The notes under the pieces: model-generated
The model's database searches: none
Told to the model about the DNA's origin: nothing
What the model saw: only the letters and a program-made list of their open reading frames with translations
Source of the DNA: Herbiconiux daphne
Lineage (GTDB): Bacteria; Actinomycetota; Actinomycetes; Actinomycetales; Microbacteriaceae
DNA length: 64,000 nucleotides
Direction of reading: 5' to 3'
Assembly (NCBI RefSeq): GCF_024979295.1
Contig: NZ_JANLCJ010000003.1
Coordinates: forward strand, 310,001-374,000
Part shown: positions 7,584-11,282 of the stretch, piece after piece
How the letters are laid out: each line of letters opens with the position of its first letter
How positions within the stretch are numbered: the stretch's first letter is position 1
Position numbers and translations under genes: made by a program

Positions 7584-8072
7584 TCAGACGCGGGCGAGCC
7601 ACCGGGTGAGGATGGGCTCGAGCGCGCGGCGATCGGCGGCCGAGAGCTGGTCGACGAGGCGACGCTCGTTCGCCATGTGCTCGGTGAAGGCCGCGTCGAT
7701 CACCTCGACGCCGCGCTCGGTGAGGGCGACGACCCGGCGACGGCCGTCGCCCTCGACGCCCCGCCGAACCACCAGCCCGGCCTCGGCGAGGCGGTCGAGA
7801 CGCTTCGTCATCGCGCCCGTGGTCACCATGGTGTGCTCGGCGAGCTCGCCCGGGGCTCGCTCGAACGGCGCCCCGGCACGCCGGAGCGTCGCGAGCACGT
7901 CGAACTCCCCCTCGCCCAGGCCGTGCCGGGCGTAGACCTCGGTGAGCTCGTCGGTGAGCCGCGCCGCCAGCCGGTGCAGACGGCCGATGATGCCCTGCGG
8001 CGACACGTCGAGGTCGGGGCGCTCGCGCCGCCACTCCTGCTGGATGCGTGCAACGTGATCGATGTCGTCCAT
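7584..8072 (-). CDS. MarR-family transcriptional regulator
   Basis: A 162-residue MarR regulator: dimerisation helices at both ends and a winged helix in the middle (EGEFDVLATLRRAGAPFERAPGELAEHTMVTTGAMTKRLDRLAEAGLVVRR), with the wing VEGDGRRRVVALTERG. MarR proteins bind palindromes as dimers and release them with small ligands. The ATG at 8072 (MDDIDHV) was chosen because a TATAGT -10 lies 7 nt upstream, giving a leaderless message. It is divergent from the DMT transporter at 8113, with the whole 40-bp gap formed by nested palindromes; control of both genes by this protein is inferred. Confidence 0.88.
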   Translation of the reverse strand: MDDIDHVARIQQEWRRERPDLDVSPQGIIGRLHRLAARLTDELTEVYARHGLGEGEFDVLATLRRAGAPFERAPGELAEHTMVTTGAMTKRLDRLAEAGLVVRRGVEGDGRRRVVALTERGVEVIDAAFTEHMANERRLVDQLSAADRRALEPILTRWLARV

Positions 8073-8120
8073 AGTCTCGACTATAGCTTCCGGGGAAGCT
8101 ATAGTCGCTTCCATGGAAGC
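8071..8120. promoter_or_regulatory. Overlapping divergent promoters inside a large MarR-type palindrome
   Basis: The core is a 28-bp palindrome: arm GACTATAGCTTCC at 8079-8091, centre GG, and the exact reverse complement at 8094-8106. It is flanked by two further dyads, ATAGTC-TC-GACTAT (8071-8084) and GCTTCC-AT-GGAAGC (8107-8120). Each arm holds a -10 TATAGT: on the plus strand at 8100-8105 with -35 TCGACT at 8077-8082, and on the minus strand at 8085-8080 with -35 GCGACT at 8108-8103, both with 17-bp spacers. The start codons follow 7 nt downstream on each side. Confidence 0.72.
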
Positions 8121-9036
8121 TAAATGGCGCTGGATTCTGGTGACGGCGATCGCCCCGGTCGCGTGGGGGTCGAACTACTACGTCACGCGCCAGTTCCTGC
8201 CCGACGACAGCCCGCTCTGGGGGGCCGTGCTGCGCGCGGTGCCGGCCGGACTGCTGCTCATGGCCGTCGCCCGCGCGCGCCCGCACGGCTCGTGGTGGTG
8301 GCGGTCGCTCGTGCTCGGCGCCCTGAACGTCGGCGCCTTCTTCGTGCTGATCTACCTGGCCTCGCAGCTCCTGCCCTCGAGTGTCGCCTCGACCATCATG
8401 GCCACGTCGGCGGGCGTGCTGATGCTGCTCGCCTGGCCACTCCTCGCCGACCGACCGACGCTGCTGCCCGCCCTCGGCGCGCTGCTGGGCTTCGCCGGGG
8501 TCGCCGTCATGCTGCTCGGCGACACGGGTGGCGTCGACGCGCTCGGGGTGGCGGCATCCGTCGCGGCCATGCTGATGTCGTCGACCGGGTTCATCCTGAC
8601 CAAGAAGTGGGCGGCCGACCAGAAGATCCTCGCCGTGACGTCGTGGCAGCTCATCGGCGGCGGTCTGCTGGTGCTGCCGTTCGCCCTGGTGTTCGAGGGC
8701 GGCGTGCCGGCCCTCGACGGGCCGGCGCTCGCCGGGTTCGCCTACGTCACGGTCATCGCGACGGCGGTGGCGTTCGTCGCGTGGTTCGCCGGGCTGCGGC
8801 ACCTGCCGGCCGGAACCGTCGGGCTGGTCGGGCTGCTCAACCCGGTGACCGGGGTGCTGCTCGGCACCCTGCTGGCCGCGGAGCCGTTCGGCTGGCGCCA
8901 GGCATTCGGCACGGCGCTCGTGCTGGCGGGCGTGTTGCTCGGGCAGCACCGACGGCCGCCGACTCGACGGATGCGCCCCGAAAACCTAGGCTTGACGTCG
9001 TGGCCGGCAAGCGGGAGCGAAGTGATTCGCGACTGA
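8113..9036 (+). CDS. DMT-superfamily (EamA) drug/metabolite exporter
   Basis: A 307-residue integral membrane protein with about ten hydrophobic helices in two EamA repeats (N-terminal WILVTAIAPVAWGSNYY...; second repeat VAASVAAMLMSSTGFILTKKW...). Each repeat ends in the family's LAGVAVMLLG / LNPVTGVLLGTLLAAEPF motif. It likely exports small metabolites or drugs. The start codon lies inside the palindrome shared with the divergent MarR gene, so expression is probably derepressed by a MarR ligand that may also be the substrate. The C-terminal tail (TRRMRPENLGLTSW...) is longer than usual and overlaps the next gene by 37 bp. Confidence 0.85.
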   Translation: MEAKWRWILVTAIAPVAWGSNYYVTRQFLPDDSPLWGAVLRAVPAGLLLMAVARARPHGSWWWRSLVLGALNVGAFFVLIYLASQLLPSSVASTIMATSAGVLMLLAWPLLADRPTLLPALGALLGFAGVAVMLLGDTGGVDALGVAASVAAMLMSSTGFILTKKWAADQKILAVTSWQLIGGGLLVLPFALVFEGGVPALDGPALAGFAYVTVIATAVAFVAWFAGLRHLPAGTVGLVGLLNPVTGVLLGTLLAAEPFGWRQAFGTALVLAGVLLGQHRRPPTRRMRPENLGLTSWPASGSEVIRD

Positions 9037-9641: not shown

Positions 9642-9726
9642 CCGCGCGTCACAGATCGACCGGGTGCCCGGTCATTCTTCAGTGACGGTGGCGGATCAGC
9701 CGCCCCGCACGACAGAAAGGTCGATC

Positions 9727-10512
9727 ATGTCGAAGATCGTGGTCATCGGCGGCACCGGACTCATCGGTTCGAAACTCGTCGCGACGCTCAGCGCCCACGG
9801 GCACGAGGCCGTGCCCGCCTCACCCGCCACGGGTGTCGACACCCTCACCGGCGAAGGACTCGCCGCTGTGCTCGACGGCGCCGAGGTCGTGGTCGACGTG
9901 TCGAACTCCCCCTCGTTCGACGACCAGGCGGTGCTCGACTTCTTCACCACCTCGACCACGAACCTCATCGCCGCCGCGAAGGCCGCCGGGGTCGGCCACT
10001 ACGTGGCACTGTCGGTCGTGGGCACCGAGCGGCTGCCCGAGAGCGGCTACTTCCGGGCCAAGGTGGCCCAGGAGCGCCTGATCAGCGGCTCCGGCATCCC
10101 GTTCTCGCTCGTGCACGCCACCCAGTTCTTCGAGTTCGTGAAGAGCATCGCGGATGCCGCGACCCATGACGGGGTGGTGCGCCTCTCCCCTGCGCGCGTT
10201 CAGCCCATCGCGGCCCACGACGTGGCCGCGGCCCTCGCCCGCGTCACGGTCAGCGCACCGCTCGAGGGAACCCACGAGGTGGCGGGACCCCAGACGTTCG
10301 GGCTCGACGAGTTCGTGCGCACCGGCCTGCGTCTTCGCGGCGACGACCGGCCGGTGGTGACCGACCCGGCCGCGCGCTACTTCGGCGAGGTGCTGGGCGA
10401 GCAGACGCTCTTGCCCGCGGCCGACGCCGAGATCGCGCACACGAGCTACACCGACTGGTTCCCGTCGAACAACCCCACCGCGGCAGCGGCCTCACGACCG
10501 GCCGCGTCATGA
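9727..10512 (+). CDS. NAD(P)-binding atypical SDR (NmrA-like) protein, copy 1
   Basis: A 261-residue Rossmann protein with the nucleotide-binding GGTGLIGSK at residues 8-16. Other family motifs are EVVVDVSNSPSFDD, GHYVALSVVGTERL and FSLVHATQFFEF. It lacks the Tyr-x-x-x-Lys pair of classical SDRs, placing it with atypical NmrA/UDP-epimerase-like binders. Start ATG 9727 follows GAAAGG. The stop overlaps the start of a second, closely related gene (ATGA). Similar proteins in Actinobacteria are often under sigma-factor or TetR control, but function is not known. Confidence 0.8.
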   Translation: MSKIVVIGGTGLIGSKLVATLSAHGHEAVPASPATGVDTLTGEGLAAVLDGAEVVVDVSNSPSFDDQAVLDFFTTSTTNLIAAAKAAGVGHYVALSVVGTERLPESGYFRAKVAQERLISGSGIPFSLVHATQFFEFVKSIADAATHDGVVRLSPARVQPIAAHDVAAALARVTVSAPLEGTHEVAGPQTFGLDEFVRTGLRLRGDDRPVVTDPAARYFGEVLGEQTLLPAADAEIAHTSYTDWFPSNNPTAAAASRPAAS

Positions 10513-11282
10513 CGATCGTCGTGGTCGGCGGCACCGGCCTCATCGGCACCAAGGTGGTGGCGCGATTGCGCGCCCTCGGCCACGATCCCGTGGTGGCCGC
10601 GCGCGCGACCGGGGTGAACTCCTACACCGGCGAGGGGCTCGCCGAGGCGCTGGCCGGCGCCGGCACGGTGGTGGATGTCTCGAACTCGTCCTACCTCGAC
10701 GAGGCCGGCGCACTCGACTTCTTCGAGACCTCCACGCTCAACCTGCTCACCTTCGGAGCAGCGGCGGCGGTCGCGCACCACGTGGCGCTCTCGGTGGTGG
10801 GCACCGACCGGCTCGCCCGGGGCGAGGGTGGCTACTTCCAGGCGAAACAGCAGCAGGAGAACCTCATCCGCTCGTCGAGCCGGCCGTTCTCGATCGTGCA
10901 CGCGACACAGTTCTTCGAGTTCGTGGGCGACATCGCCGACAGCGCGAGCCGCGACGGCCGGGTGCGGGTGGCGCAGGCGCTGATGCAGCCGATGGCGGCC
11001 GACGACGTGGCGGACGCCGTGGTGCGCACGGCGCTCGGCGCGCCGACCCGCGCGGTCACCGAGTTCGCCGGTCCCGAACCCGGGAGGCTCGACTACTTCG
11101 TGCGACGCCTGCTCACGGCCGGAGACGACGTGCGCGAGGTGCGCGCCGACCCGCTGGCCCGCTACTTCGGCAGTGCCCTCACCGAGCGCGAGCTGCTACC
11201 CGGCGACCGCGCCGTTCTCTCGAGCCTGCGGTTCGATCAGTGGCTGAAGGGCGTGCGGCCGGCCGCTGTCGCGGCGGGCTGA
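10509..11282 (+). CDS. NAD(P)-binding atypical SDR (NmrA-like) protein, copy 2
   Basis: A 257-residue paralogue of the preceding gene. The same blocks occur in the same order (GGTGLIGTK, VVDVSNSSYLDEA, HHVALSVVGTDRL, FSIVHATQFFEF, VQPxAADDV-like, LARYFG, LLPGD), so the pair arose by tandem duplication. The copies have diverged well beyond recent duplication, and the overlap of 4 bp suggests they are translated together and may form a heterodimer. It ends only 6 bp from the convergent SRPBCC gene at 11289, leaving no room for a terminator. Confidence 0.8.
   Translation: MTIVVVGGTGLIGTKVVARLRALGHDPVVAARATGVNSYTGEGLAEALAGAGTVVDVSNSSYLDEAGALDFFETSTLNLLTFGAAAAVAHHVALSVVGTDRLARGEGGYFQAKQQQENLIRSSSRPFSIVHATQFFEFVGDIADSASRDGRVRVAQALMQPMAADDVADAVVRTALGAPTRAVTEFAGPEPGRLDYFVRRLLTAGDDVREVRADPLARYFGSALTERELLPGDRAVLSSLRFDQWLKGVRPAAVAAG

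Follow-up and report, generated by a model that had tools for sequence, protein, structure and literature searches.

A putative leaderless PecS-PecM-type control region with tandem operators in Herbiconiux daphne and related actinobacteria

The divergent gene pair and its regulator

The stretch of DNA analysed here, referred to below as the window, consists of 64,000 nucleotides from Herbiconiux daphne. It contains two divergently oriented genes, coding for a regulator and an exporter, whose start codons (8072 on the minus strand and 8113 on the plus strand) are separated by a gap of 40 bp (Table 1). In profile searches, the regulator is matched by the Pfam families MarR_2 and MarR. The exporter matches Pfam EamA in two separate stretches, and has a match to TIGR00950 that lies below the cut-off for that model. 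A paralogous MarR regulator, 42% identical, is present in the same genome (G000:C1:876053-876514), while the viral contigs that were searched contain no relative of the regulator. Elsewhere in the window, at 9664-11282 on the plus strand, there are two neighbouring and similar open reading frames, which overlap by 4 bp and each have a GGTGLIG motif near the N-terminus. They are probably a tandem duplication of a gene for an NAD(P)-binding protein.

Table 1. Coordinates of genes and sequence features at the locus (positions in the window)
Feature	Position	Strand	Description
PecS-like MarR-family regulator gene	7584..8072	-	162 aa, ATG at 8072
Left dyad of the first-pass annotation, ATAGTC-TC-GACTAT	8071..8084		Incidental
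Weak -35-like hexamer TCGACT	8077..8082	+	17-bp spacer, 4/6 to TTGACA
Inverted repeat	8078..8107		14-bp arms, GG centre; O1 plus mirrored -10 elements
Regulator -10 element TATAGT	8080..8085	-	TA supplied by the left end of O1
Operator O1	8084..8101		TAGCTTCC-GG-GGAAGCTA, 16/16 to consensus
Exporter -10 element TATAGT	8100..8105	+	TA supplied by the right end of O1, final T by the first base of O2
Weak -35-like hexamer GCGACT	8103..8108	-	17-bp spacer, 3/6 to TTGACA
Operator O2	8105..8122		TCGCTTCC-AT-GGAAGCTA, 15/16 to consensus; centre is the exporter start codon
PecM-like EamA/DMT exporter gene	8113..9036	+	ATG at 8113

The PecS family is defined by an N-terminal helical extension that carries a conserved tryptophan (PMC6391409). 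In the structural model of the regulator, residues 2-17 form an N-terminal helix (mean pLDDT 85.7, with residues 1-10 at 68) containing W14, and this tryptophan, together with D58, R91 and R103, is present in all 92 regulators compared (79 actinobacterial and 13 proteobacterial). We take these four to be the equivalents of W20, D73, R106 and R118, the residues of HucR that contact urate; D58, R91 and R103 pair with the HucR residues in an ungapped alignment, and W14 lies outside that alignment. The nearest solved chains by sequence are 8ylf (9.3e-39) and 8ylh (1.2e-34), which are named MftR and PecS, and the top fold matches of the model are MftR-DNA (8ylg) and Pectobacterium PecS-DNA (8yli), at 46% identity, TM 0.68-0.72 and rmsd ~6.3. 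Other marks of PecS systems are also found: the divergent EamA gene has two EamA domains, the nearest matches in both sequence and fold are PecS, MftR and HucR, and palindromic sites of 16-18 bp occur within the shared gap, in the form of O1 and O2.

On these grounds, the regulator is assigned as a MarR protein of the PecS/MftR/HucR type, and the exporter as a PecM-like EamA transporter. PecS represses both pecS and pecM, and is described as answering to urate in several species (PMC6391409, PMC12288460). The gene pair is therefore taken to be an actinobacterial, probably leaderless version of this known autorepression module. Neither the PecS-PecM family nor the leaderless consequence was named in the first-pass annotation of this DNA.

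Tandem operators in related loci

Related loci were collected in two samples. For the first, 60 genomes including that of the window were searched, 48 gave a match, and the best 30 loci were kept; for the second, 568 relatives were confirmed in named genomes, of which the best 80 were kept. An EamA gene in divergent orientation is present in 97 of the 110 loci, and the merging of three duplicates left 94 distinct loci, 13 of them proteobacterial and 81 actinobacterial. The base set used for counting comprises 79 actinobacterial loci including the window, of which 58 come from the best 80 of 568 and 21 from the best 30. Two loci were left out of it, L024 (53.6% identity) and L028 (48.6%), which have a divergent EamA gene but not this operator, L024 being taken out by hand once this had been seen. 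The loci of the base set are related and are not independent events, and no probability is claimed for the counts of start codons and codons given below. A further group of loci, found by pattern (L033-L039, and L120 onward), was kept from the counts and provides examples only, such as L152.

The operator consensus of the 79 loci is an 18-bp sequence, TAGCTTCC-NN-GGAAGCTA, which occurs in tandem. At least two predicted operators are present in 77/79 loci, or 77/81 if both of the omitted loci are counted. In the window, the centres of O1 and O2 are 21 bp apart, which is two helical turns, and the last pair of operators has this same spacing in 70/77 loci, the others being at 20 bp (2 loci), 22 bp (2), 23, 28 and 32 bp. 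Because the operators were located by their likeness to the consensus, their agreement with it at individual positions is inflated. When the whole genome was searched for the core, O1 and O2 were the only sites found with one mismatch or none. Allowing two mismatches added five more sites, but a reversed control pattern gave 77 matches, and these additional sites therefore carry no weight.

O2 is not universal, in that two of the 79 loci checked (L020 and L081) have no consensus O2. In both of these the start codon is still 21 bp from O1, and lies inside another short inverted repeat (GACTC-GTG-GAGTC; CCCTG...CAGGG). A mirror operator on the regulator start, O0, was considered and rejected, its best score being 10/16 over 77 loci. 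Three operators are seen in L067, each 21 bp apart, and in L071, at 25 and then 21 bp, which suggests that arrays grow by whole operator units.

In a strict pattern search, the layout was found in 30 of 398 genomes of the family, and in 3 of 296 genomes of the phylum when part of the -10 element was also required, the genome of the window being included in each case. The strict layout is thus patchy across genomes. As judged from the loci compared, the layout itself appears to be common to many actinobacteria.

The recognition helix was compared with the operator word. Actinobacterial regulators, which have CTTCC sites, carry K90 in 79/79 and A or G at position 87 in 79/79, and proteobacterial regulators, which have CTTGA sites, carry N90 together with T87 in 13/13, although as a comparison of two clades this amounts to a single contrast. 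The PecS-PecM module would in this way gain an actinobacterial form, having its own operator word and matching residues in the recognition helix. In the proteobacterial relatives L101-L115 the sites read TATCTTGA-NN-TCAAGATA, and several loci of Rhizobium type have a weaker site located at the exporter ATG, with 15 bp to the next site.

The longest short-loop inverted repeat of the window is CGACTATAGCTTCC-GG-GGAAGCTATAGTCG, which has perfect 14-bp arms; no other in the window combines perfect arms of at least 11 with a loop of 0-4. In 20 first-order Markov copies of the window, arms of 12 occurred at 0.1 per window, and there were none of at least 13. The first-pass annotation described this as a 28-bp perfect palindrome. 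It is correct that 28 of the 30 positions pair, but the central GG is unpaired, so that the palindrome is not uninterrupted. Nor is a single palindrome the conserved unit, as had been supposed: what is conserved is the 18-bp operator, present twice and 21 bp apart, and the long palindrome consists of O1 plus the two mirrored -10 elements. Of the two flanking dyads that had been pointed out, the right one is O2, and is kept in relatives, but the left one is not conserved. As an operator the left dyad was rejected, because at least five of its six arm pairs match in only 1/77 loci, namely the window itself. A further reading of the palindrome, as an RNA hairpin or terminator, was rejected because the palindrome would lie upstream of both predicted start sites.

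Start codons, -10 elements and operator ends

In 77/79 loci, as found by script and by hand check, the last operator is centred on the exporter start codon; in this count L081 was not included, its start not being in a consensus operator, and L062 was added by eye. For the coding half of O2, the tests that are free of consensus bias are those in which O2 is defined by its non-coding half alone. When this was done (TTCC at +21), 68 loci were obtained, and 68/68 of them have GAA directly after an ATG or GTG. In the rest of the exporter genes, GAA accounts for 81/370 Glu codons. At codon 3, GCT is used for 32/44 Ala codons, compared with 157/3847 elsewhere in the exporter genes (both codon tallies include L081). 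This bias at codons 2 and 3 argues that the bases are kept for the DNA and not for the protein, and a constraint at the DNA level is apparent for both codons on comparison of the loci.

The TATAGT elements that had been noted on both strands, 7 nt from each ATG, are present, and the general arrangement of divergent overlapping promoters with a repressor site between them is borne out by the sequence and by the comparison. The claim of symmetric promoters with 17-bp spacing stands as far as the -10 elements and the spacing are concerned, but the -35 hexamers are poor matches (Table 1). Over the 77 loci, an exporter -35 matching in at least four of six positions is found in 25, against about 5% at random positions. 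In 69/77 loci the motif TANNNT precedes the exporter start by exactly 7 nt, and it is absent from that exact place in 8/77. At other offsets from 5 to 30 it occurs in 0-4 loci each, except for a gap of 5 (10 loci) and a gap of 23 (62 loci), the latter being the mirrored -10 element. Before the regulator start, TANNNT is found at 6 nt in 47 and at 7 nt in 23 of 71 loci, a count that is partly selected because regulator starts were picked within 18-23 bp of O1; in L052, L072 and L082 (3/77) the regulator starts further away than this.

Tetramers typical of a ribosome site are found before 1/77 exporters and 0/71 regulators, against about 10% at random positions. A leaderless gene is expected to have its -10 element about 7 nt upstream of the start codon and to lack a ribosome site, and this is the geometry seen here. 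Since the start codons come 6-7 nt after the -10 elements, both genes are probably leaderless. Promoters of the TANNNT type have been reported for Mycobacterium smegmatis, as have leaderless transcripts, at 24% (PMC6448022). The regulator might instead start at an upstream ATG at 8114 (minus strand), giving a protein of 176 aa, in which case the palindrome would be coding and the two transcripts would overlap. The frame is indeed open from 8114, but the matching frame extends uninterrupted to that codon in only 22/77 loci, and we find this start very hard to credit.

O1 ends in TA on its left side in 71/77 loci and on its right side in 69/77. O2 begins with T in 77/77, and its coding end is TA in 57/77 and A in 76/77; elsewhere in the exporter genes, TA across codon junctions occurs at a frequency of 64/23169. 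With O2 set by the non-coding TTCC alone, T is the first base in 68/68 and TA stands at the coding end in 51/68. Because TA recurs at the coding end of O2, where no promoter is needed, it would seem to be the end of the operator and not a part of the promoter. The spacing of 21 bp leaves three bases between the operators, so that the TA of O1 and the first T of O2 together make TANNNT, the -10 element of the exporter, while the -10 element of the regulator is made up of the left TA of O1 and, three bases beyond it, a T. The two -10 elements are mirror images because O1 is palindromic, and the palindrome is longer than the operator because each TA end of O1 starts a TANNNT, one on each strand.

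One reading of this arrangement is that the promoter is built out of repressor operators. Operators of 18 bp with TA ends, repeated every 21 bp, would create TA-NNN-TA junctions, each of which is a TANNNT on either strand, and the operator centre (CC-RTG-G) would fall exactly 7 nt downstream, where it fits a leaderless start. One sequence would then serve as operator, -10 element, +1 site and start codon, and would also encode Glu as the residue that follows Met. We give this reading about an even chance of being right.

In three compact members of the base set (L010, L045 and L074 of the 79) and in the pattern-found L152, the regulator start codon also lies in an operator centre. The two -10 elements overlap in these loci, and one junction serves both genes. 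Their predicted start sites are 20 bp apart, which is near the 18 bp reported as commonest in E. coli (PMC12825309). In L152 the regulator and the exporter, which are unrelated proteins, both begin MEGN.

There are other ways in which the symmetry beyond the operator could be explained. The long palindrome may be an extended operator, the protein reading beyond the 18-bp core and the symmetry of the -10 elements being a constraint of binding. The mirrored hexamers are identical in 21/77 loci against 5.9 by permutation, with the excess at hexamer positions 3 and 5, and arms of at least 13 are found in 3/33 representatives at a 75% cut (permutation mean 0.18, p 0.0006) and in 3/21 at a 70% cut (p 0.0028), which is in favour of such an extension. 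Nevertheless, perfect arms of at least 13 are found in only 9/77 loci, and beyond the core the excess at individual positions in the representatives is modest: at the 75% cut p is 0.02-0.04 for three positions, at the 70% cut one stays below 0.05, and the excess is inflated by relatedness. An extended operator is therefore considered rather unlikely.

Alternatively, the extra symmetry might be a by-product of mutation. In quasi-palindromes, correction templated by a hairpin makes one arm a copy of the other, and the symmetric hexamers differ by lineage (TATAGT, TAGAGT, TAGTAT, TAGACT and TATATT), with arms as long as 24 bp in the Streptomyces locus L062, as would suit such an origin. However, the shared -10 consensus explains much of the symmetry, and most loci have no extended symmetry at all, so that we see little likelihood in a mutational origin.

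Proposed control and comparison with known systems

We think it likely that 8072-8122 is an actinobacterial control region of the PecS-PecM type, which is leaderless, repressed by two dimers and released by a ligand. A dimer of the PecS-like MarR protein would bind to O1, between and overlapping both -10 elements, and a second dimer would bind to O2, centred on the first codon of the exporter. O1 and O2 are two helical turns apart, which would place the dimers on the same face of the DNA, and cooperation between them is proposed from this spacing alone. The bound dimers would keep RNA polymerase from both promoters, so that the regulator represses its own gene as well as that of the exporter, and the dimer on O2 would also occlude the exporter +1 site. 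A ligand, by homology urate or xanthine, would free the dimers and turn both genes on. Both mRNAs are expected to start at or beside the A of their ATG, and it is because both would be leaderless that the operator, the +1 site and the start codon can coincide. The model is built on the operators, their 21-bp phasing, the start codon inside O2 and the spacing of the -10 elements, all of which come from the comparison of loci; binding, repression, leaderless 5' ends, same-face cooperation and the ligand are predicted.

It had been suggested in the first-pass annotation that one bound dimer could silence both genes. O1 alone does overlap both -10 elements, but O2 is nearly as conserved as O1, and two dimers are to be expected. 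Joint silencing of both genes is likely, probably by two dimers. Taken further, the same suggestion becomes a model in which both promoters are contained in one palindromic site and silenced by one dimer, and in which they regulate one another mainly by exclusion of polymerase. Besides the overlap of O1 with both -10 elements, this model is helped by the expectation that, with the start sites separated by 41 bp, the two polymerase footprints would overlap, and by a report on E. coli bidirectional promoters in which one direction could be repressed by strong activation of the opposite one (PMC12825309). It is hard to reconcile with the presence of O2 in 77/79 loci and the lack of conservation of the left dyad, and the same source reports that at all five E. 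coli bidirectional promoters tested there was too little basal transcription for polymerases to compete (PMC12825309). We consider it quite improbable.

Mutual exclusion of polymerases is sterically plausible nonetheless, and simultaneous initiation would be unlikely given the overlap of the promoters. Since strong activation in one direction can repress the other in E. coli, exclusion may matter here once the gene pair has been induced. To judge from the comparison as a whole, the finding is real, and appears to be a conserved actinobacterial variant of PecS-PecM control and not a one-palindrome switch. If this account is correct, leaderless transcription allows one DNA word to be at once a repressor site, part of a promoter, a start codon and the N-terminus of a protein, and the specificity of the regulator would be locked to promoter strength and to the second codon of the exporter. 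These loci would also offer a clean test of the origin of promoters from repeated operators, and a design for a very short repressible two-way promoter.

A literature search combining PecS and leaderless returned no PecS study by title, though the layout may still have been published, and among the matches listed in a search for the operator words with MarR, most appeared to be bone-marrow or primer matches. PecS-PecM systems are known in Dickeya, Agrobacterium fabrum, Pectobacterium, Vibrio and Streptomyces coelicolor, and like the window they have a divergent MarR regulator and EamA exporter. The comparison of site maps covers V. vulnificus and A. fabrum. Sites in Vibrio are described as 18-bp palindromes with 9-bp half-sites, and these systems have more than one site (PMC6391409, PMC12288460), as in the window. 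In A. fabrum, two overlapping sites are reported to span the pecM promoter and part of the coding region (PMC6391409, PMC12288460), which is again similar. By contrast, the V. vulnificus sites are given as 57 bp apart, predicted to be on opposite faces, in a region of 200 bp (PMC6391409), whereas in the window the operators are 21 bp apart, the gap is 40 bp, and both genes look leaderless. The core word also differs, being CTTCC in the window and CTTGA in the rhizobial relatives.

CrtR of Corynebacterium glutamicum is likewise an actinobacterial MarR autorepressor that faces its target operon, and its own gene is reported to be leaderless (PMC5401885). It differs in that the crtE start site is placed 114 nt upstream of the start codon, in its TTAA-containing site, and in its ligands, which are given as isoprenoid pyrophosphates (PMC5401885).

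Bidirectional promoters as described by Warman and Grainger have opposed start sites beside or within one shared -10 element, mostly 18 bp apart but also commonly 10 or 23 bp (PMC12825309). The window does not belong to this class, its -10 elements being 20 bp apart and its predicted start sites 41 bp apart. Within the class, acrR/acrA of E. coli resembles the window in having divergent repressor and efflux genes, and symmetric promoter DNA with a repressor site (PMC12825309). Its two directions are described as sharing part of one -10 element (PMC12825309), whereas those of the window are separate, and among the relatives only the compact L010, L045, L074 and L152 resemble acrR/acrA in having -10 elements that overlap.

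In the ForZ-forAA system of Streptomyces formicae, a palindrome bound by a MarR-family protein contains the start site of a divergent exporter gene, much as predicted for the window, and the regulator transcript is reported to be leaderless and possibly auto-activated (PMC12421854). The source describes a single genomic site and a different palindrome, and the gene it states to be leaderless is that of the regulator (PMC12421854), which sets it apart from the window. ForZ is the nearest functional precedent found.
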